64,000 bases of DNA, taken from positions 186,001 to 250,000 of the forward strand of contig NZ_LMAU01000002.1 in assembly GCF_001441535.1 (NCBI RefSeq), in the 5' to 3' direction. Both the position numbers and the translations under genes were made by a program. Shown one piece after another: positions 47,635 to 56,847 of this stretch (positions are counted from its first letter, which is position 1; each line of letters begins with the position of its first letter). Below the pieces are notes generated by a model. The model searched no databases. It saw only the letters and a program-made list of their open reading frames with translations, and was not told the origin of the DNA. Source of the stretch: Tsuneonella troitsensis. Lineage in GTDB: Bacteria > Pseudomonadota > Alphaproteobacteria > Sphingomonadales > Sphingomonadaceae.

Positions 47635-50600
47635 TCAGTGAAAGTCGCGGCTCGGTGGTAACGGCATAAGCTTGGGTACGATCCGCACGTCGCGCGGGTG
47701 GCCGCCCGTGAAACCGCATTCGCGGTTGCCCGGTCCCGGCGGCTCCCAAGGCTCGACAGGCTTGTGCGGGTTCTGTTCCCCGCTGAGCAGGTTGTCGCGC
47801 GGGTTCAGCTTGCTGGGTAGCGGATTGTTGCAGTGATCCGCCCGCGCGATTGGCGTCCTGATGAGATCGTCCGAAAGGCGGTGGAGCTCGTGCGTCGCGT
47901 CGGTCATGTGCTGTGCGATCACATGGATCACCTCGTCGTCGTATTCGACGCGGCCGCGCACCTCCATCAGCCGCGATCCCATCACAACCTTGCGCTGCTT
48001 TTCCTTGAGATCGGGCCAGACGACGAGGTTGATCACCCCCGTCTCGTCCTCCAGCGTGATGAAGCATACGCCCTTGGCGCTGCCAGGGCGCTGGCGGATC
48101 AGCACGACGCCCGCGACCTGGACCATGCTGCGGAACTTGCGCTCGCGCAGGTCGCTGGCACGCACGAAACCGCGTTCGGCCAGGGCCGGTCGTAGGAATG
48201 CCATCGGGTGCGCCTTCAGGCTGAGGCGAGTGGTCTGGTAATCGGCGACCACTTCCTCGGACAGCGGCATGCGCGGCAGCGCGGTGGGGACCGCCTCCCC
48301 TCCCTCGTCCCGCGCTTCGGCAAAGGCGAACAGAGGCAGGTCGGGCCCCGCGATCAGGCTGCGCGCATCCCATAGGGCCTGGCGCCGGGGCAGGTGCAAG
48401 GACTGGAAGGCGTCGGCGCTGGCGAGCCGCTCGATATGTGCGGGCGACAGCCCGGCCCGGTCGCGCAAAGCAGCGACGCTGTCGAACGGGCCGCGCTCGC
48501 TGCGCTCCGCAAGCAGGCGCGCGGCGACGTATTCGGGCAGCCCGTCGATTTGCCGCAGGCCGAGGCGCAGAGCGACCTGCCAATCGAGGCGGCCGCGGTC
48601 CCCTTCTGCCGGACCAGTTCCCGGTGCCATACTCTCCAGCGTGCAATCCCATTCGCTCGCGTTGACGTCGACCGGCAGTACCGTGACGCCATGCTCCACG
48701 GCGTCGCGCACGATCTGCGCCGGGGCGTAAAAGCCCATCGGCTGCGAATTGAGCAGCGCGCAGCCGAACGCGGCGGGGAAGTGGCACTTGAGCCAGCTCG
48801 ACACATAGACAAGATGCGCAAAGCTGGCCGCGTGGCTCTCGGGAAAACCGTATTCGCCGAAGCCGCGGATCTGGTTGAAACAGCGCTGGGCGAACTCGCG
48901 ATCGTACCCGCGCGCCACCATCCGCTCGACCATCATGTCCTGCAACTCGTCGACCATTCCGCGGCTCCGGAAGGTCGCCATCGCCTTCCTCAACCGGTTC
49001 GCCTCGAGCGACGAGAACTTCGCCGCGTCGAGCGCGATCTTCATCGCCTGTTCCTGGAAGATCGGCACACCCAACGTGCGCTCGAGGATGCTCGACAGTT
49101 CGTCGGGCGGGCCATGCTCCGGCGCGGGCGCAGGGATTACTACCTGCTCCGCCCCGCGGCGGCGCTTGAGGTAGGGATGCACCATATCGCCTTGGATCGG
49201 TCCCGGCCGCACGATGGCGACCTGGATCACGAGGTCGTAGAATTCGCGCGGTCGCAAGCGCGGCAGCATGTTCATCTGCGCCCGGCTCTCGACCTGGAAT
49301 ACGCCGAGCGAATCCCCCTTGCGGAGCATGGCGTAGGTTTCGGGGTCTTCGCGCGGGACGGTTGCCAGCGTCAGGCTCCGCCCGTGCGTGCTTTCGAGCA
49401 GGTCGAGGCACTTTCGGATGCAGGTGAGCATACCCAGCGCCAGCACGTCGACCTTCAGGATGCCGAGTGCTTCGATATCGTCCTTGTCCCATTCGATGAA
49501 GGTGCGATCGGGCATGGCCCCGTTACCGATCGGCACGGTCTCGGTAAGCGGCCTGTCGGTCAGGATGAAACCGCCTACGTGTTGCGACAAATGGCGCGGC
49601 ATACCAATCATTTGCTCGGTCAGTTTGAGAACGCGCCGCAAATGAGGATCGGCAATGTCGAGACCGGTCTCCTCGACATGGCGTTCGCCGATCTCTTTGC
49701 CCCATCCGCCCCAGACGGTCCGCGCGAGCGCACTGGTCACGTCCTCGGACAAGCCCATCGCCTTGCCCACCTCGCGGATGGCCATCCGCGGACGGTAATG
49801 GATCACGGTGGCGCACAGGCCAGCGCGGTGGCGGCCATAGGTTCGATAGATGTGCTGGATCACCTCCTCACGCCGCTCATGCTCGAAATCGACGTCGATA
49901 TCGGGCGGCTCCTTGCGTTCCTCCGAGATGAAGCGGTCGAACAATAGCGCGTGCTTGGCCGGATCGACCGAGGTGATGCCGAGACAATAGCAGACGGCCG
50001 AATTCGCCGCCGACCCGCGCCCCTGGCACAGGATGGGTGGCTCGACCCCTCGGGCGTAATCGACGATGTCCTTGATGGTCAGGAAATAACGCGCCAGATC
50101 GAGCTTGCCGATCAGCACCAGTTCGCGCTGGATCGTGGTGCGAACGGTATCTGGTAAACCGTTGGGATAGCGCCATTCCGCCCCCTTCCAGGTTTCGCCT
50201 TCGAGGAACGCCTGTGGCGTCATGCCGTCGGGATAAATCTCCTGCGGATACTCGTACTGCAACTCGTCGAGCGTGAACCGGCAGGCGTCTGCCACTTCGC
50301 GCGCCGCCGCGATGGCGTGAGGCCAGCGCGCGAACAACGCCGCCATCTCCGCAGGTCCCTTGAGATGACGCTCGGCATTGCCGAACAGCAGGTGACCCGC
50401 GGCATCGACCGTGGTCTTGTGCCGGATCGCCACCATCACGTCCTGCAACGGACGGCGCTCGGGCGCGTGATAGTGCACGTCGTTCGTTGCGAGCAGCGAC
50501 AGGCCATGCTCGCGCGCCAGCGCATCGAGGTGGTCGATCCGGGCAATATCCTCGCCGGTGTGGAGATAACTCGCGGCGATATGACGCAGGGTGGGAAGAC

Positions 50601-51192
50601 CGGACGTCAAATGATTGACAAGATAAGCGAAACTGCCTGTGACAAGCTCTTGCGCCTGCCCTCCGCCGAGTGCGACGACATTGCTGGCCCATGCCGGAAC
50701 GGTGAATTGCGCCGCCAGATCGTGGGGCGGCAGCAGGATCAGTTGAACCCCTTCGGCATGAGCGGCGATCATGCCCAGGTCGATGTCGCACGCCCCTTTG
50801 GCCTGCCACTCTCCGTCCAGGGTCTGCATCCGGCCCGCGCTGATGAGCCGACACAGACGGCCATAGGCTGCGCGGTCCGTAGGATAGGCGAGGAAGGCCA
50901 AGCCTTCGACCGTTTCCAGACGACACCCAATAACCGGCTGCATCTTCAGGGTTTTTGCCTCGGTGTGCACGCGCACAACGCCGGCCATCGAGTTCACGTC
51001 CGCGATGCCCATGGCGTCATAGCCGAGCGCATGGGCTGTCAATACCAGGTCGACCGCATCCGACGCGCCGCGCAGGAAGCTGAAATTGCTGACGAGACCC
51101 AGTTCGACGAACGCCGCGCGCGGGGGCGCGGTTATGCTATCGGGATCGAGTTCGATTCGCCGTCGCGGAATGAGGAGGTCGTTCTCGGGCAC
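47635..51192 (-). CDS. dnaE2: Error-prone DNA polymerase DnaE2
   Basis: The 1185-residue C-family polymerase matches DnaE2 (ImuC). The N-terminal PHP domain starts FVELGLVSNFSFLRGASDAV, the catalytic aspartates are in KEPPDIDVDFEHERREEVIQ near residue 430, and the C-terminal OB-fold (QRPGSAKGVCFITLEDETGV) is followed by the short DnaE2 tail. DnaE2 works with ImuA and ImuB in SOS-induced mutagenic translesion synthesis. Here it starts one base after the UdgX-fusion gene, in an operon headed by a radical SAM gene with an SOS box. imuA and imuB are in a separate operon 3.3 kb away. Confidence 0.95.
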   Translation of the reverse strand: MPENDLLIPRRRIELDPDSITAPPRAAFVELGLVSNFSFLRGASDAVDLVLTAHALGYDAMGIADVNSMAGVVRVHTEAKTLKMQPVIGCRLETVEGLAFLAYPTDRAAYGRLCRLISAGRMQTLDGEWQAKGACDIDLGMIAAHAEGVQLILLPPHDLAAQFTVPAWASNVVALGGGQAQELVTGSFAYLVNHLTSGLPTLRHIAASYLHTGEDIARIDHLDALAREHGLSLLATNDVHYHAPERRPLQDVMVAIRHKTTVDAAGHLLFGNAERHLKGPAEMAALFARWPHAIAAAREVADACRFTLDELQYEYPQEIYPDGMTPQAFLEGETWKGAEWRYPNGLPDTVRTTIQRELVLIGKLDLARYFLTIKDIVDYARGVEPPILCQGRGSAANSAVCYCLGITSVDPAKHALLFDRFISEERKEPPDIDVDFEHERREEVIQHIYRTYGRHRAGLCATVIHYRPRMAIREVGKAMGLSEDVTSALARTVWGGWGKEIGERHVEETGLDIADPHLRRVLKLTEQMIGMPRHLSQHVGGFILTDRPLTETVPIGNGAMPDRTFIEWDKDDIEALGILKVDVLALGMLTCIRKCLDLLESTHGRSLTLATVPREDPETYAMLRKGDSLGVFQVESRAQMNMLPRLRPREFYDLVIQVAIVRPGPIQGDMVHPYLKRRRGAEQVVIPAPAPEHGPPDELSSILERTLGVPIFQEQAMKIALDAAKFSSLEANRLRKAMATFRSRGMVDELQDMMVERMVARGYDREFAQRCFNQIRGFGEYGFPESHAASFAHLVYVSSWLKCHFPAAFGCALLNSQPMGFYAPAQIVRDAVEHGVTVLPVDVNASEWDCTLESMAPGTGPAEGDRGRLDWQVALRLGLRQIDGLPEYVAARLLAERSERGPFDSVAALRDRAGLSPAHIERLASADAFQSLHLPRRQALWDARSLIAGPDLPLFAFAEARDEGGEAVPTALPRMPLSEEVVADYQTTRLSLKAHPMAFLRPALAERGFVRASDLRERKFRSMVQVAGVVLIRQRPGSAKGVCFITLEDETGVINLVVWPDLKEKQRKVVMGSRLMEVRGRVEYDDEVIHVIAQHMTDATHELHRLSDDLIRTPIARADHCNNPLPSKLNPRDNLLSGEQNPHKPVEPWEPPGPGNRECGFTGGHPRDVRIVPKLMPLPPSRDFH

Positions 51193-51193
51193 C

Positions 51194-52648
51194 TCACGCG
51201 CTCAGTTCCGCGAGCCGTTCCTTCACCGCGGCAAGATCGGCATCGAACAGCCGGCACTGTTCCTCCTGCGCTGCGCCATCGAGCCGGAGCAGGTACGAAG
51301 GGTGCGCGGTAACCCACAGTTCGCTGCCGTCGTCGAGCGGGATAGGCGTGCCGCGCGCCTTCGATATGCTCACCGTACGGCCCAGCATCCCGCGCGCCGC
51401 GCTGGCGCCCATGGCGAGGACCAGCTTCGGCCGCACGATCGCCCGCTCGCTCTCCACCCACCAGCGGCAAGTGTCGATCTCCTTGGCGGTCGGCGATTGG
51501 TGCAGGCGCCGCTTGCCGCGCTGCACGAACTTGAAGTGTTTGACCGCGTTGGTGACATAGGCGCTGCGCCGGTCGATCCCGGCTTGCTCGAGGTGCCGGT
51601 CGAGCAGTTGTCCGGCGGGACCGACGAAAGGCCGGCCGGCAAGGTCTTCCTGGTCGCCCGGCTGCTCGCCCACGATCATGAGTCCGGAAAAACCCTGGGC
51701 GGCGTTCTGCGGTCCCTCCCCCATAACCGCGTGGTTGTCGAGCAGGCCGATGGGGCATTTGCGGCAACCGTGGATCGCCTTGTCGATCTCCGCGAACGTT
51801 TCAGGGCGCTCGTCGAATTCCAAGCTTCCGGCCGCGACCATCGCCGCCTCCCGCGATTGCGCTTCGGCGACAAGCTCGGGAATGAGCGCGGCCTCGGGCA
51901 TATTTTTCCAGTATTTGCGGGGCATTTCCTTGAGCATGGCCCCGATCTTCAAACGCGCGGGATTGAAGATCGACGCATAGTACTTGCGCCACAAATCTTC
52001 GGTCGGATCGCCCTGTGGCGCATCGCCGCGCTGCGCGGGCGGGCCTTCTTCCAGCACCGATCCGTCCCAATGGAGCGAGCCCCTGGGCGTAAGGATCGAC
52101 CATCTCATGTTGGCGAAACGCCGCACGAAGAAGCCGGCGTTGGCGCGCAGGATGTGATGCTCGGGCTCGAACCACGCGACATAGTGCTCGCCCGCCTCCT
52201 CGCCTTCGCCTTCCACGAGCCGGAAGCGGACGAACGCGCGCATCTTGTGAATGTCGCGGCGAACCGTGCGGGCCAGTTCGTCGATCTTGCGGACTTCCGG
52301 ATCGGCCCCGTCTTCCAGCAGGCGCGGTTTCGCCTGCAGCCGCCAGAGCAGGCGATAGAGCAGCGCGAACCGTTCGGGGTCCGAATGGCAGATCGCCGAC
52401 TTGGCGAGCTGCACGAAGGCCTTGCTGGCCCGCACCGGCGAAGCGTCGGTGGGCGGCACCGGTAAACGGCGGTCCCCGTGACTGAACAGGCTACCCGACC
52501 CGCCCGGCTCGACCCACGCGATCCGATCGGGCGGGACATCGCACTGAACGAGGCCGCGCGCGCGTTCGCGCCAGAAATCGAAATCGTCCGCCTCGGGCAA
52601 GGCCACGACGTAGTACGTGCCCAGCTTGACGTGTTGCAGCGCGGTCAT
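51194..52648 (-). CDS. DUF4130-UdgX fusion, uracil-DNA glycosylase/binding protein
   Basis: The 484-residue protein joins an N-terminal DUF4130 domain (about 1-250: FDFWRERARGLVQCDVPPDR, MRAFVRFRLVEGEGEE, HYVAWFEPEHHILRANAGFF) to a UdgX-type uracil-DNA glycosylase domain (about 265-484). The latter has CRKCPIG, the active-site motif GEQPGDQEDLAGRPF near 324, the R-loop KRRLHQSP near 374 whose histidine forms a covalent bond with the uracil site in characterised UdgX, and TAHPSYLLRL. The ATG overlaps the radical SAM stop, and dnaE2 follows after one base, so it is SOS-controlled with both. Confidence 0.92.
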   Translation of the reverse strand: MTALQHVKLGTYYVVALPEADDFDFWRERARGLVQCDVPPDRIAWVEPGGSGSLFSHGDRRLPVPPTDASPVRASKAFVQLAKSAICHSDPERFALLYRLLWRLQAKPRLLEDGADPEVRKIDELARTVRRDIHKMRAFVRFRLVEGEGEEAGEHYVAWFEPEHHILRANAGFFVRRFANMRWSILTPRGSLHWDGSVLEEGPPAQRGDAPQGDPTEDLWRKYYASIFNPARLKIGAMLKEMPRKYWKNMPEAALIPELVAEAQSREAAMVAAGSLEFDERPETFAEIDKAIHGCRKCPIGLLDNHAVMGEGPQNAAQGFSGLMIVGEQPGDQEDLAGRPFVGPAGQLLDRHLEQAGIDRRSAYVTNAVKHFKFVQRGKRRLHQSPTAKEIDTCRWWVESERAIVRPKLVLAMGASAARGMLGRTVSISKARGTPIPLDDGSELWVTAHPSYLLRLDGAAQEEQCRLFDADLAAVKERLAELSA

Positions 52649-53889
52649 GCGGCAAACAATTCCAGTTGCTCGGTCTTCGGCGCCAGCAAGGCGCGCAGGT
52701 CGGCGCGGTCGGTGAGGAGAACCGGGCGCCAGTCCGCCGTGATTATGAACGGACGCACCTTGGCGATCGATACGGTCAGCTTGGCAACGTCGTCGAGCCG
52801 CATCGTGCGGTGACGACGACTTGCCAGGATGCGGTTCACCGCGCGCACGCCAAGCCCCGGCACGCGCAGAAGTTGCTCCTTGCTCGCCCGGTTCACGTCG
52901 ACTGGAAACCGCTCGCGAAACTTCAGCGCCCAGGCGAGCTTGGGATCGATATCGAGCGGCAGGTTGCCGTCTGCCTCGGTCGCCTGCATCACTTCGGAGG
53001 GCTGATACCCGTAGAAGCGCATCAGCCAGTCGGACTGATAGAGACGGTGCTCGCGGATCAGCGGCGGGCGCTTGAGCGGAAGCACAGCGCTTGCATCGGG
53101 GATCGGGCTGAATGCGCTGTAATAGACACGGCGTAGGCGGAAGTTGTCGTACAGCCGGCTTGCCTTACCCACGATATCGGCATCGGTCGCCGCGTCCGCC
53201 CCCACGATCATCTGGGTGGATTGACCCGCGGGCGCAAAGCGCGGGGCGTGCTTGAAGCGCCGCTTGTTGTCCTTCGCCTCGACGATGTCGCTCTTGAGCT
53301 TGCCCATCGCCCCTTCGATCTGCCGCGCGCTCTTGTCGGGGGCGAGACGCACGAGGCCCGCATCGGTCGGCAGTTCCACGTTGATCGAGACACGGTCCGC
53401 ATAGAGGCCGGCCTGATGAACCAGTTCGGGATCGGCCTCCGGAATGGTCTTCAGGTGGATGTAGCCGCGAAAGTCGTGCTCCTCGCGCAGCATCCGCGCA
53501 ACCTCCACCAGTTGTTCCATCGTATGGTTGGACGATTTCACGATGCCCGAGGACAGGAACAGGCCTTCGATGTAATTACGGCGGTAGAAGCTGAGCGTCA
53601 GGTCGACCACTTCCTGTGGGCTGAACCGCGCACGGCGGACGTTCGAGCTCTTGCGATTGACGCAGTAATGGCAGTCGAACACGCAGTGATTGGTCAGCAG
53701 TATCTTGAGCAGCGAGATGCAGCGTCCGTCGGGTGCATAGGCATGGCAGATGCCCATCCCCTCGGTCGACCCGATGCCCTTGCCTCCACTGGAATTGCGC
53801 TTCGTGGTGCCGGAGGATGCGCACGAGGCGTCGTACTTCGCCGCGTCGGCAAGGATTTCCAGCTTCTCGATGATAGTTTGCGGACCCAT
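52645..53889 (-). CDS. Putative DNA modification/repair radical SAM protein
   Basis: The 414-residue protein has the radical SAM cysteines C-x3-C-x2-C in LTNHCVFDCHYCVNRKSS near residues 68-76, a barrel with EGLFLSSGIVKSSNHTMEQL and TQMIVGADAATDADIVGKAS, and a C-terminal helix-hairpin-helix (FPVDVNRASKEQLLRVPGLG). The HhH suggests it acts on DNA. The family (TIGR03916 as I recall) regularly accompanies UdgX and DUF4130 proteins, but its reaction is unknown. I chose the ATG at 53889; its -10 box and SOS box lie directly upstream, so the mRNA may be leaderless. Confidence 0.9.
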   Translation of the reverse strand: MGPQTIIEKLEILADAAKYDASCASSGTTKRNSSGGKGIGSTEGMGICHAYAPDGRCISLLKILLTNHCVFDCHYCVNRKSSNVRRARFSPQEVVDLTLSFYRRNYIEGLFLSSGIVKSSNHTMEQLVEVARMLREEHDFRGYIHLKTIPEADPELVHQAGLYADRVSINVELPTDAGLVRLAPDKSARQIEGAMGKLKSDIVEAKDNKRRFKHAPRFAPAGQSTQMIVGADAATDADIVGKASRLYDNFRLRRVYYSAFSPIPDASAVLPLKRPPLIREHRLYQSDWLMRFYGYQPSEVMQATEADGNLPLDIDPKLAWALKFRERFPVDVNRASKEQLLRVPGLGVRAVNRILASRRHRTMRLDDVAKLTVSIAKVRPFIITADWRPVLLTDRADLRALLAPKTEQLELFAA

Positions 53890-53891
53890 TT

Positions 53892-53923
53892 GTTCCTTAT
53901 ATGTTCCAATGACGAATTCGCAA
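53892..53923 (-). promoter_or_regulatory. SOS box and promoter of the radical SAM-udgX-dnaE2 operon
   Basis: GTTC-CTTATAT-GTTC at 53892-53906 is a perfect alphaproteobacterial LexA site (GTTC-N7-GTTC). On the minus strand TTGCGA (53923-53918) and TATAAG (53901-53896), spaced 16 bases, form a promoter whose -10 lies inside the box. The start codon is two bases past the box, so LexA binding would block initiation and the transcript would have almost no leader. Confidence 0.85.
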
Positions 53924-54010: not shown

Positions 54011-54517
54011 ATGGAACCCCAACCCAGCTTCGAACCGGAGACGTTGGCAGAACGCCGCGCGTCGCGCCGCGTGCGGGTAACCTGCGACGCCGCTTTGCTC
54101 ACCATGACGACGCAGACGTCCGGCAGTCTCGTGGACATTTCCGAAGCGGGTGCGCGCTTCGAAGCGGCCGACCCGCCCGGTTCGGGAGCCACCGCTTTGC
54201 TGCGCTGGAACAATCGCGAGGCCGTATGCACGATCGTCTGGTCTGAGGGAGAAGCCTGCGGGCTGTCGTTCGCCAAGCCCTTGCCTGCCGAGGTAGTGGC
54301 GGAAACGGCTGCGCTGGACCGTGTGCTGGAACTGCCGATCGCCAGCGTCGGGAATATCACCCAAGGTCGCAAGCGATCGCTCTCGTTTCTCAAGACGGCG
54401 CCGGCGGAACCTGTACTATCCGGCGATTCGGTGGAGGCACCCGCACCGGGAATCGGCGGCGCCTCGCTGGCCGAAGTACTCGCCCATTATCGGCGCACGG
54501 GATCCTGGGAGCGGTAG
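54011..54517 (+). CDS. PilZ-domain protein
   Basis: The 168-residue protein has a PilZ domain at about 15-100: ERRASRRVRVTCDAALLTMT provides the RxxxR c-di-GMP motif and SLVDISEAGARFEA the [DN]xSxxG motif. The rest is low-complexity, with no enzymatic domain. It probably binds c-di-GMP and modulates a partner. It lies between two SOS operons on the opposite strand, divergent from the radical SAM gene and convergent with imuB, and has no visible SOS role. Confidence 0.85.
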   Translation: MEPQPSFEPETLAERRASRRVRVTCDAALLTMTTQTSGSLVDISEAGARFEAADPPGSGATALLRWNNREAVCTIVWSEGEACGLSFAKPLPAEVVAETAALDRVLELPIASVGNITQGRKRSLSFLKTAPAEPVLSGDSVEAPAPGIGGASLAEVLAHYRRTGSWER

Positions 54518-54523
54518 CGGCGC

Positions 54524-56092
54524 TCAGGCACACAGGCCCTGCAGAAACCAGTCGGGCATACCGCCGCGCCCGTCCCCAATAATGCCCAGGCGGTAGATCC
54601 AGTACCGGCGACCGTCGCCATCCTCGATCCGGTAGTAATCGCGCAGCCGTGCGGTCCCCTTCTCGCGCCACCATTCGGGAGCGATCCGTTCGGGACCCTC
54701 TACACGGACGACCTCGTGCACGTTCCCGCGCCAACGGAAGCGCTGGGGATAGCCGTCGGGGGTGGCATAGAGCACCGCGATCTTCTCCGCCCGGTCGAGC
54801 AGCTTGAGCGGCCGCGCGTGAAAAGCGAGTTCTCCCTGGCTGGGCGGTTCGGGCACGAGAGGGCGCTGCCAGCGCTGGGCGCGCTCGGGGATATGGCTGG
54901 CATGAAGCACCGGCTTGCGGACGGCATCGGGTCCGAGGCGAACAGTAAGACGGTCGATGCAGGCGGCCAGAGACGTGCCGTGTTCTTCCGCTGCGGATTC
55001 GATATCGGCCTGCGCGAGGGCCAGCGGCTCGGCCCAGCTCGCCCGCAGGCGCACGCACTCGATCCCGAACCCGGCATCGATATCGTCGAGCTTGGCACCG
55101 AACAGCCGCGCGATATGGCCGGCCTCTCGTGTGGCGGCGGCAAGTTCGAGCCGTCGGATGATGACTTCGCCGTCGACGCGCCACATCCCCAGATCGAGCC
55201 GGCGAGCCCCCTGCCCCAGCCCCTCGAGTTCGCGCGCCATGTCTGCGGCAAGATCGACAAGAACCTGGTCGAGCAGATCGCGGTGGCGAATGGGCTCCAT
55301 AAGTCGCCGCTGCACCAGCGGCATTTCCTGCGGGATTACCGGCAGCAGCGGCTCGGGCACCTGCCCCAGCAACTGGTCGAGCCGGACGAGCGGATTCGCC
55401 CCGGGCGACTTGCGATTGCGGAACCGTCGATGCAGCGCATCGCGGCCCGCGCTTTCCTCGAACCGATCGGTCAGATCGCCGATCCGCTTGAGGCCGAGGC
55501 GGCGCAGGACCGAAAGGACGTCTTGGTCGAGGCGCAGGGCGGCGACCGGCAAATCCGCCAGACGCGAGGCGATATCGTCTTGCCGCCACAGGATGGCGGC
55601 GTCCGGCCCGTAATGCGCCATGGCCCAGGCTGCCCCGGCGGTAGGCGCGATAGCCATGCGCGCCGCAAGACCCCGCGCGGCGAATTTCGCCTTCGCATCG
55701 GCCAGCAGCTTTTCCTCTCCTCCGAACAGGTGGGCGACCGCGGTCACATCGACCAGCACGCCGTCGGGCGCGTCCATCGCGCTCCACGGGCCCCAGCGAA
55801 GCGCCCAGAGGGCCAGCTTCTCGAGGAAATCGTGATCGCCCGCCGGGTCGCTGGGCGAGACCTTGAGCGAAGGGCATAGCGCGCGCGCGTCGGCGAGCAT
55901 CATGCCGCTGCGCGCGCCGGCAGCGAGGCCTGCGGGGTTGGCGGCTTCGATGCGCGGCCCGTGCGCGGTCTCGATGATCAGCGCGGTCGGTTCGGCGTCG
56001 GCGCCCTCCCCCGGCGCAAGCCCGCTAGCCAGCCGCCAGCGATCGATCGCCAGCCGCGAAAGCCAGACCGAGAGGATGCGGCGATGCGCCAC
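54524..56092 (-). CDS. imuB: Mutasome Y-family polymerase-like protein ImuB
   Basis: ImuB is an inactive Y-family polymerase homologue that bridges DnaE2 to the beta clamp and ImuA. The 522-residue form starts at RRILSVWLSRLAIDRW, lacking the catalytic DMD. DGVLVDVTAVAHLFGGEEKL stands where active polymerases have SIDE. GLAARMAIAPTAGAAWAMAH and LRRLGLKRIGDL follow. I prefer the GTG at 56092; an ATG at 56143 would give 539 residues. Either start lies inside imuA, so the genes overlap by 68 or 119 bases. Confidence 0.9.
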   Translation of the reverse strand: MAHRRILSVWLSRLAIDRWRLASGLAPGEGADAEPTALIIETAHGPRIEAANPAGLAAGARSGMMLADARALCPSLKVSPSDPAGDHDFLEKLALWALRWGPWSAMDAPDGVLVDVTAVAHLFGGEEKLLADAKAKFAARGLAARMAIAPTAGAAWAMAHYGPDAAILWRQDDIASRLADLPVAALRLDQDVLSVLRRLGLKRIGDLTDRFEESAGRDALHRRFRNRKSPGANPLVRLDQLLGQVPEPLLPVIPQEMPLVQRRLMEPIRHRDLLDQVLVDLAADMARELEGLGQGARRLDLGMWRVDGEVIIRRLELAAATREAGHIARLFGAKLDDIDAGFGIECVRLRASWAEPLALAQADIESAAEEHGTSLAACIDRLTVRLGPDAVRKPVLHASHIPERAQRWQRPLVPEPPSQGELAFHARPLKLLDRAEKIAVLYATPDGYPQRFRWRGNVHEVVRVEGPERIAPEWWREKGTARLRDYYRIEDGDGRRYWIYRLGIIGDGRGGMPDWFLQGLCA

Positions 56093-56810
56093 CGGCCCAA
56101 TCGTCGTTCGAGAAGGGGGCGGCGACGAGTTCGTGCCCGTCATTGTACAAAGTCCATGTGCCGGGAGGGTGCATGCGGGAACGGAACAGGTCCGCCCTCC
56201 ATGAAGGGATGCCGGGCGCCCGGTCGTTCCAGCTGGGGTGAGGCGAAGGAGCGGAGCGCACATCCCACCGCATCCGGGCCGACGACAGGTCGTGCCGTGC
56301 ATCGAGCCGCACCAGCCAAAGCGGGACGCCATGCTTTTCGGCGGTGAGCGTCAGTCTTCGCGAGGCCGTGAAATCGAGCGCACGCGGATTGCCTGCCAGC
56401 TCCCCGATCACCGCCGCCACATCGCGGCAGCGCAATCCTTCTTCCAGCGCGAACAGCACATCCTCGCAATTGTCGCACAGCACGTGGACGATGCGGTGAC
56501 GGAATGCCTTGGGCAATCCGGGGCGATAGGGGCGGCCGCCCAGTCGCAACGCCTGCCGGTCCTGGACCCACAGCAGAGCGCGCAAGTCATCGGCCTCGAC
56601 TGAATTTTCGCGCTCCTTTCCGCTCAACGCGTCGGCGATAAGGGCTAGTGCAGCCCCCGCCCCGCTCGCCTCGCCAGAGGGCGCGAACACCTCGCTATGG
56701 TGCGCTCCTGCCAGCCCCGGCCGCCAGCGCGGTGTGTGGGTGGACAGGCAGGCAAGCCCGGAGGCCGGCAGGAACGCGTTCGGCAAGGTCATGGCAAGAG
56801 GACGACTCAT
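56025..56810 (-). CDS. imuA: Mutasome accessory protein ImuA
   Basis: ImuA is a RecA/SulA-like component of the ImuA-ImuB-DnaE2 mutasome. The 261-residue protein shows TPRWRPGLAGAHHSEVFAPS, LLWVQDRQALRLGGRPYRPG, VLCDNCEDVLFALEEGLRCR and LWLVRLDARHDLSSARMRWD. It lacks a canonical Walker A, as usual for alphaproteobacterial ImuA. The ATG at 56810 lies two bases from an SOS box. It is the first gene of the imuA-imuB operon. Confidence 0.9.
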   Translation of the reverse strand: MSRPLAMTLPNAFLPASGLACLSTHTPRWRPGLAGAHHSEVFAPSGEASGAGAALALIADALSGKERENSVEADDLRALLWVQDRQALRLGGRPYRPGLPKAFRHRIVHVLCDNCEDVLFALEEGLRCRDVAAVIGELAGNPRALDFTASRRLTLTAEKHGVPLWLVRLDARHDLSSARMRWDVRSAPSPHPSWNDRAPGIPSWRADLFRSRMHPPGTWTLYNDGHELVAAPFSNDDWAGGASPHPLGLAFAAGDRSLAAG

Positions 56811-56812
56811 TC

Positions 56813-56847
56813 GTTCTCTTTATGTTCCGTTGCTCGGCGATTCGCAA
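56813..56847 (-). promoter_or_regulatory. SOS box and promoter of imuA-imuB
   Basis: GTTC-TCTTTAT-GTTC at 56813-56827 is a perfect LexA direct repeat. TTGCGA (56847-56842) and CATAAA (56824-56819) are spaced 17 bases on the minus strand, with the -10 overlapping the box. The start codon lies two bases beyond it. The design parallels the radical SAM operon promoter. Confidence 0.85.

Follow-up and report, generated by a model that had tools for sequence, protein, structure and literature searches.

In a 64,000-nucleotide stretch of the Tsuneonella troitsensis genome (contig NZ_LMAU01000002.1, positions 186,001 to 250,000; hereafter the window), the gene for a radical S-adenosylmethionine (SAM) protein, here termed rSAM, is followed on the same strand by a gene encoding a DUF4130-UdgX fusion and by dnaE2, the gene for an error-prone DNA polymerase III alpha subunit. 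The three stand behind one SOS-type operator. We consider that rSAM, DUF4130 and UdgX probably make up an SOS-induced, clamp-tethered lesion-processing module which is co-induced with the DnaE2 mutasome. The association of such radical SAM proteins with DUF4130 and uracil-DNA glycosylases (UDGs), and its SOS control, are already published; new are the joining of dnaE2 to the pair in a coupled operon, the one-time origin of this arrangement, and a clamp-type motif at the C-terminus of rSAM.

A sequence-only reading of this locus had described three genes that overlap and then abut, and their position and spacing on the minus strand are confirmed: a 4-nt overlap (ATGA) joins rSAM to udgX, and a single nucleotide separates udgX from dnaE2 (Table 1). 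The rSAM protein belongs to TIGR03916, a family that we take to be the same as COG4277. The gene pairing expected of this family is present, the adjoining, overlapping gene encoding a TIGR03915 protein. Directly upstream of rSAM, and absent from that earlier description, lie imuA-imuB (56810-54524) with a box of their own. The locus does not carry a contiguous imuA-imuB-dnaE2 operon; possessing DnaE2 together with imuA and imuB on the same strand, it is a variant of that cassette.

Table 1. Features of the rSAM-udgX-dnaE2 locus and its upstream neighbors (window positions)
Feature	Position	Strand	Support or remark
rSAM (radical SAM protein), 414 aa	53889 (ATG) to 52645 (stop)	minus	TIGR03916 581.4 bits, cut-off 343.5
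rSAM, second profile match	52645..53889	minus	Radical_SAM 33.4 bits
rSAM cluster motif CX3CX2C (C69, C73, C76)	53662..53685	minus	32/32 rows
rSAM, three more near-invariant Cys (C23, C48, C57)	53719..53823	minus	each in 31/32 diverse rows
rSAM helix-hairpin-helix region, residues 330-360	52810..52902	minus	HHH_3 25.4 bits, just under cut-off 27
rSAM QLELF, beta sliding clamp-type motif, residues 408-412	52654..52668	minus	pLDDT <50 for residues 407-414
DUF4130-UdgX fusion, 484 aa	52648 (ATG) to 51194	minus	TIGR03915 and TIGR03914 over cut-offs
DUF4130 part, residues 20-253	51890..52591	minus	TIGR03915 221.6 bits, cut-off 112.25
UdgX part, residues 255-475	51224..51886	minus	TIGR03914 310.4 bits, cut-off 189.95
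UdgX R-loop KRRLH, H383	51500..51514	minus	aligns with KRRIH His (H109) of M. smegmatis UdgX, the cross-linking residue
DnaE2 (error-prone DNA polymerase III alpha), 1185 aa	51192 (GTG) to 47635	minus	NF004225 1378 bits, cut-off 939
LexA-type operator GTTC-N7-GTTC, GAACATATAAGGAAC towards the gene	53892..53906	plus	2 nt before rSAM ATG
LexA-type operator, GTTC-N7-GTTC pattern	56813..56827	plus	2 nt before imuA ATG
ImuB, Y-family-like, longest frame	54524..56332	minus	IMS 34.6 bits, DUF6504 28.7 bits
ImuA	56025..56810	minus	NF033429 24.6 bits, below cut-off 150; name from context

The arrangement is widely shared. In a survey of 149 genomes of the source family rSAM was counted in 101, DnaE2 in 132 and both in 97; rSAM matches at E 0.001 occurred in 106 genomes, of which 101 were kept (100 over the cut-off plus the partial G116) and five, whose sole match scored approximately 20 bits, were dropped. 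Linkage, meaning that rSAM and DnaE2 share a strand and their family matches are 1528-1803 nt apart, was found in 30 of the 97 genomes, representing 19 genera, where random placement would yield roughly 0.0006 per genome. This rules out a strain-specific oddity, the outcome that the sequence-only reading had itself named as fatal to its proposal. A udgX gene lies between rSAM and dnaE2 in all 29 linked loci fetched; the 4-nt overlap of rSAM and udgX recurs in 21 of these, the distance from udgX to dnaE2 is 1-15 nt in 25, and in one (L068) the rSAM frame is shorter. Among 80 named loci, the best 80 of at least 593 (L120, L127, L137 and L150 stop at contig ends), linkage is present in at least 12; the titles of 11 of these are Sphingomonadales or genera of that order, and one is an uncultured alphaproteobacterium. 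Linked examples are Qipengyuania polymorpha, Alteraurantiacibacter buctensis, Novosphingobium subterraneum and Croceicoccus sediminis. A class-wide set of 289 alphaproteobacteria contained rSAM in 18 genomes, DnaE2 in 129 and both in 16, DnaE2 being present in 16 of the 18 rSAM genomes versus 113 of the 271 without rSAM (p 1e-4, uncorrected for phylogeny). The genome of Caulobacter crescentus likewise has matches to rSAM, DUF4130 and DnaE2. Coupling of rSAM-udgX to dnaE2 is favored, not obligatory. A separate neighborhood of the same genes occurs in Henriciella pelagia (L157:9660-12684), where rSAM-udgX stands head-to-head with imuA-imuB-dnaE2 over two LexA-type boxes.

The history of the linkage can be read from the relatives that lack it. 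The genes imuA, imuB and dnaE2 are contiguous in all 20 unlinked relatives sampled (of 67), 19 of which carry a box upstream of imuA. This contiguity indicates that rSAM-udgX is an insert between imuB and dnaE2. Of the 29 linked loci, 28 have imuA-imuB upstream of rSAM, and the remaining one (L063) starts at a contig end; in L067 the distance to rSAM is about 6 kb. The 29 linked DnaE2 rows (the window and 28 loci; L067, with a stop within its DnaE2 frame, was left out of the tree) form one clade with a Shimodaira-Hasegawa-like approximate likelihood ratio test (SH-aLRT) support of 100. Unlinked DnaE2 proteins of the same genera (G105 versus G019, G131 versus G059) fall outside this clade, G131 being its sister. 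Since the linked DnaE2 proteins constitute a single clade, the linkage arose once and then broke repeatedly, and multiple independent origins are not favored.

The proposal that one SOS box serves all three genes is supported by the conservation of that box. The box before rSAM is a perfect GTTC-N7-GTTC lying just beyond the end of the interval covered by the earlier description. Such sites number two in the window against 1.77 expected, which is the chance level, and 88 genome-wide against 53 for the reversed pattern; a chance origin of the rSAM box was rejected on its position and conservation despite the window count. Under one uniform rule, a box precedes rSAM in 29/29 linked loci (reversed pattern 1/29), and the same is true for 16 of 17 unlinked sphingomonads (reversed control 0), 13 of 14 other alphaproteobacteria of the class survey (reversed control 0) and 78 of 80 named alphaproteobacteria (reversed control 1), or 136 of 140 alphaproteobacterial loci with some species counted twice. 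No box was found by this rule at the start of udgX (0/29) or dnaE2 (0/29) in the linked loci, and among the named loci there was one at udgX (1/66) and none at dnaE2 (0/12), so that the rSAM box is the sole near operator for all three genes. A box precedes imuA in each of the 27 linked loci where that gene was assigned. Outside the class but within the phylum, CTGT-N8-ACAG or one close variant lies near the rSAM start in 16 of 20 loci. The occurrence of boxes before rSAM across lineages with differing LexA boxes indicates that SOS control belongs to the rSAM pair itself.

The source genome encodes both LexA (168.3 bits) and RecA (577 bits), and its GTTC-N7-GTTC sites also precede uvrA, recA, radA and an rmuC-like gene. 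For this check 20 of the 88 genomic sites were chosen by eye for their likeness to the window boxes and 10 downstream frames were scanned, of which three are firmly assigned (UvrA, RecA and RadA), two have no family, and the remainder, RmuC included, fall below cut-off; a further site lies 37 nt past the end of the LexA match. Taken together, the sequences support the prediction that rSAM, udgX and dnaE2 share one SOS-type operator as members of the LexA regulon. Both window boxes lie 2 nt before an ATG and display the same geometry, GAAC-N7-GAAC-N2-ATG, from which it follows that bound LexA would cover the ribosome-binding region. The sequence AAGGA is found inside the rSAM operator.

The rSAM protein carries QLELF ending two residues short of its C-terminus. 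The strict motif Q[LM]xL[FLW] occurs within the last 12 residues of 129 of the 138 full-length alphaproteobacterial rSAM rows, where shuffled tails gave a mean of 0.17 and a maximum of 1. With Q and the fourth-position L fixed by the pattern, L fills position 2 in 91 percent of these rows and F fills position 5 in 92 percent; the commonest letter at each of the three preceding residues reaches only 36-60 percent. Among 24 rows from other classes or phyla, 15 have the strict motif and 22 fit the looser QxxL(x)[FLWI], as in QASLF and QLSLGF; the Acetoanaerobium protein has QLSIF further in and that of Gemmatirosa has no motif. QLSLF has been described as a full clamp-binding consensus (available text of PMC4549789), and the rSAM motif, on a tail that the model renders as flexible, fits the sequence pattern of a putative beta-clamp binder. 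The strict motif was absent from the tails counted for UdgX (57+66+21), DnaE2 (28+12), ImuA (27+13) and ImuB (9+4), and only one UdgX/DUF4130 tail among them had the loose form. A look for a clamp motif in ImuB, for which most frames were badly assigned, gave one candidate, QEQLRF in L055. According to the available text of PMC10421592, the mycobacterial mutasome cannot do without the clamp motif of ImuB. The rSAM QLxLF and the like motif of ImuB point by analogy to the sliding clamp as the likely meeting point of the rSAM module and the mutasome. No paper noting a clamp motif on this rSAM family was found in the literature searched.

The UdgX part of the fusion is predicted to be of the uracil-capturing type. 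Its residues 273-461 match the Mycobacterium smegmatis UdgX chains (6iod, E 1.3e-42), the closest solved structure, and all of the motifs, as defined in the available text of PMC10359453 (GEQPG, R-loop His, HPS), are present: motif A GEQPG, R-loop KRRLH, and motif B HPS (HPSYLLR). Every one of 110 homologues that have both UdgX motifs keeps the R-loop His, as established by pattern for 97 and by eye for 13; L050 has HPA in place of HPS. By sequence, UdgX retains the residues with which uracil would be excised and the DNA covalently captured.

The DUF4130 part was modeled with a predicted local distance difference test (pLDDT) score of 88.0. Its best VIA rows are 8a8k (Z 8.2, root-mean-square deviation [rmsd] 4.9, 183 aligned) and, at Z 7.7 (rmsd 4.3, 185 aligned), RecJ 5f56, with Foldseek E 0.16 at best. 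Both are DHH/DHHA1-type proteins. An hhalign comparison of DUF4130 with the RecJ of the window alone returned a probability of 0.4, no DHH family appeared among the Pfam matches of 31 DUF4130 members, and the DHH metal residues are not evident among the conserved residues. A DHH phosphoesterase is accordingly a fold lead without sequence support and was not assigned.

What rSAM itself might catalyze is suggested by its fold and cysteines. The model (pLDDT 82.7 overall) is closest to HydE (Z 17.8; 215 residues, rmsd 2.8) and lipoyl synthase (Z 17.8; 226, 3.2), followed by biotin synthase (Z 16.8). The available text of PMC3765255 associates DUF4130 with SplB-like radical SAM photolyases, so that rSAM could be a photolyase of the SplB kind reversing a UV thymine lesion, with UdgX and DnaE2 as back-up. 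This we regard as distinctly unlikely: of 18950 NCBIfam models only TIGR03916 matched rSAM at E 0.001, the best folds are of the HydE, lipoyl and biotin synthase types, and there are three additional near-invariant cysteines. SplB is not among the 50 fold rows shown for the model, which does not imply its exclusion.

These three cysteines (C23, C48 and C57), N-terminal to the CX3CX2C motif, are a candidate second Fe-S site. Lipoyl synthase has an N-terminal auxiliary cluster, and rSAM might in the same fashion insert sulfur, or use a second Fe-S cluster, on a DNA base or a UdgX-DNA adduct; the position of the cysteines and the Z score of lipoyl synthase agree with this. The idea is nevertheless very doubtful in our view, as HydE fits equally well and biotin synthase nearly so, residues 23-58 are modeled below pLDDT 50, and the spacing of the cysteines presumably differs from that in lipoyl synthase. 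The helix-hairpin-helix region, with weak Protein Data Bank (PDB) profile matches to the corresponding regions of ComEA-type proteins and RuvA, likely contacts DNA. No reaction for the TIGR03916 family was found in the literature searched.

The proposed module starts from what is observed, namely the gene order, the single origin of the linked DnaE2 proteins, the operator, the active-site residues of UdgX and the clamp-type motif, and to these it adds induction, clamp binding, a lesion, a radical reaction and a hand-over to DnaE2 as presumed steps. The module would have been inserted once between imuB and dnaE2, in the ancestor of a clade that includes Erythrobacter, Qipengyuania and Croceicoccus; this insertion placed dnaE2 behind the module's LexA operator and left imuAB with its own. 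Upon DNA damage LexA would be cleaved and both transcripts made together. ImuB would bring DnaE2 to the sliding clamp, while rSAM would use its C-terminal QLxLF tail to reach that clamp and its helix-hairpin-helix to touch DNA. UdgX would excise uracil at stalled or gapped forks and stay covalently on the abasic site, shielding it, and the rSAM/DUF4130 core would chemically process the damaged or captured base before or beside bypass by DnaE2. In its most specific form, in which rSAM rides the clamp, UdgX forms a shielded covalent adduct at uracil in gapped DNA, rSAM and DUF4130 resolve or rewrite the site and DnaE2 finishes the synthesis, joined to the mutasome operon in one clade, the scheme is rather unlikely.

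Several observations weigh against the proposed module as a partner of DnaE2. Linkage was not seen in 67 of the 97 family genomes with both genes, 54 of them being clearly unlinked and the other 13 left undecided by contig ends. The genes are likewise unlinked in 12 of the 13 alphaproteobacteria outside the family that have both (the other, G192, where rSAM reaches the contig end, is undecided), and in 20 other-class loci, sampled from 29 matches, no DnaE2 was found within about 8 kb either side of rSAM (L213 is a 6.9-kb contig). The word "locked," which the sequence-only reading used for the tie to the mutagenic polymerase, is too strong for these counts. Named and survey loci share species (L122/L043, L124/L049, L134/L066), so the counts are not independent. 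The linked label needs seven changes on the rSAM tree, in which 12 of the 52 inner branches have weak support and L098, an unlinked row, joins the outgroup on a long branch; linkage often dissolves, and the history that best fits the seven changes is a single gain followed by repeated losses, with rSAM-udgX staying. Four of the 101 rSAM genomes of the family lack a DnaE2 match at E 1e-250 (two are drafts, 91-95 percent complete). Finally, a DUF4130 protein shorter than 340 aa, which leaves no room for UdgX, occurs in 10 of 18 assigned loci of other classes (of 20), in 5 of 13 from the class survey and in 6 of the 66 named loci; none of the 29 linked loci has a short DUF4130 protein, although one of them (L063) carries UdgX out of frame. 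The absence of UdgX from part of the family indicates that rSAM and DUF4130 form the core and that UdgX is not essential to its reaction.

The main alternative is that rSAM-UdgX and DnaE2 are unrelated SOS functions sharing an operator for regulatory convenience. The pair carries its own SOS box wherever it is located, and it is unlinked in most genomes, linkage having been lost repeatedly. This explanation, which is compatible with a clamp tether, is a real possibility if not a probable one; tight coupling has been retained through 19 genera, the clamp is the expected common meeting point, and rSAM and DnaE2 co-occur. The pathway first put forward for this locus was an ordered reaction, in which UdgX or rSAM captures or modifies a base and DnaE2 then fills in. 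It accords with the operon order and coupling and with the intact covalent-capture residues of UdgX, but the separation of the pair from DnaE2 in most genomes, the genomes without a DnaE2 match and the family members devoid of UdgX make it unlikely. A co-induced module meeting the mutasome at the clamp is the reading that we prefer.

TIGR03916 and DUF4130 represent a broadly spread SOS function, which the conserved clamp-type motif would probably place at the sliding clamp. Culturable alphaproteobacteria carrying the operon with dnaE2 would allow epistasis among radical repair, covalent capture of uracil and mutagenic synthesis to be determined directly.

As to the neighboring genes, the true start of ImuB is probably further in than that of the longest frame, nearer 56140. 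A PilZ-domain gene on the plus strand (54011-54517) sits between imuB and rSAM, and a similar gene is found at this position in 4 of the 29 linked loci. An anti-phage defense role was set aside, PADLOC giving no match for rSAM, DUF4130-UdgX or DnaE2. Elsewhere in the source genome an SOS-type box overlaps the start of a PA0069-family radical SAM gene (L228, C2 at approximately 29.4 kb, 438 bits against 360), a candidate, from its sequence, for a second SOS-controlled radical SAM protein. SOS-type boxes at L232 (C3, about 46.8 kb) and L233 (C3, about 83.4 kb) precede, respectively, a gene resembling those for lytic transglycosylases and an S24-peptidase-like regulator that has a divergent frame of 105 aa; the family scores are below cut-off.

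With respect to earlier reports, the association of radical SAM proteins with UdgX/DUF4130, assumed as known in the sequence-only reading, is indeed in print (available texts of PMC8565304 and PMC3765255). The operon with dnaE2 is new; the notion of SOS-controlled UDGs working alongside error-prone polymerases already appears in the same two texts. In the literature searched no paper was found that joins UdgX with radical SAM, and the main text of PMC12926913, on DnaE2 associations, contains no word beginning "radical" or "glycosylase." A radical SAM protein bearing the TIGR03916 name is upregulated on drying in Acinetobacter (PMC13130816, as far as its text is available), and another is included in a table of PMC9611098, likewise available in part.

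The nearest described system is the UDG-COG4277 two-gene operon of Bacteroidetes, for which SOS control was predicted in PMC8565304; the available text cites earlier reports of this kind in Verrucomicrobia and Alphaproteobacteria, and proposes that the UDGs act against ribonucleotides misincorporated by error-prone polymerases of the SOS response. The same two partners and LexA-kind control are found here, whereas dnaE2 is a third coupled gene in an imuAB region, and the available part of that paper says nothing of a clamp motif on the partner. In PMC3765255, as available, DUF4130 is called a predicted mutagenesis-related enzyme and is placed with SplB-like radical SAM and UDG proteins in an SOS gene-neighborhood network; that network is centered on SRAP and ImuB-C, and the dnaE2 operon, its history and the clamp motif are not described in the part available. 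The UdgX of M. smegmatis (PMC10359453 and PMC10776899, available texts) has GEQPG, KRR(I/L)H and HPS in common with the present protein. Solved UdgX-type chains are 205-229 residues long, whereas here UdgX is fused behind DUF4130 in an operon with rSAM and DnaE2. Lastly, the imuA-imuB-dnaE2 cassette of the Caulobacter type (PMC1839093 and PMC10421592, available texts) has the same gene order and a LexA-type box before imuA; in the T. troitsensis locus, by contrast, rSAM-udgX and the opposite-strand PilZ gene interrupt imuB and dnaE2, and dnaE2 lies behind a second operator.

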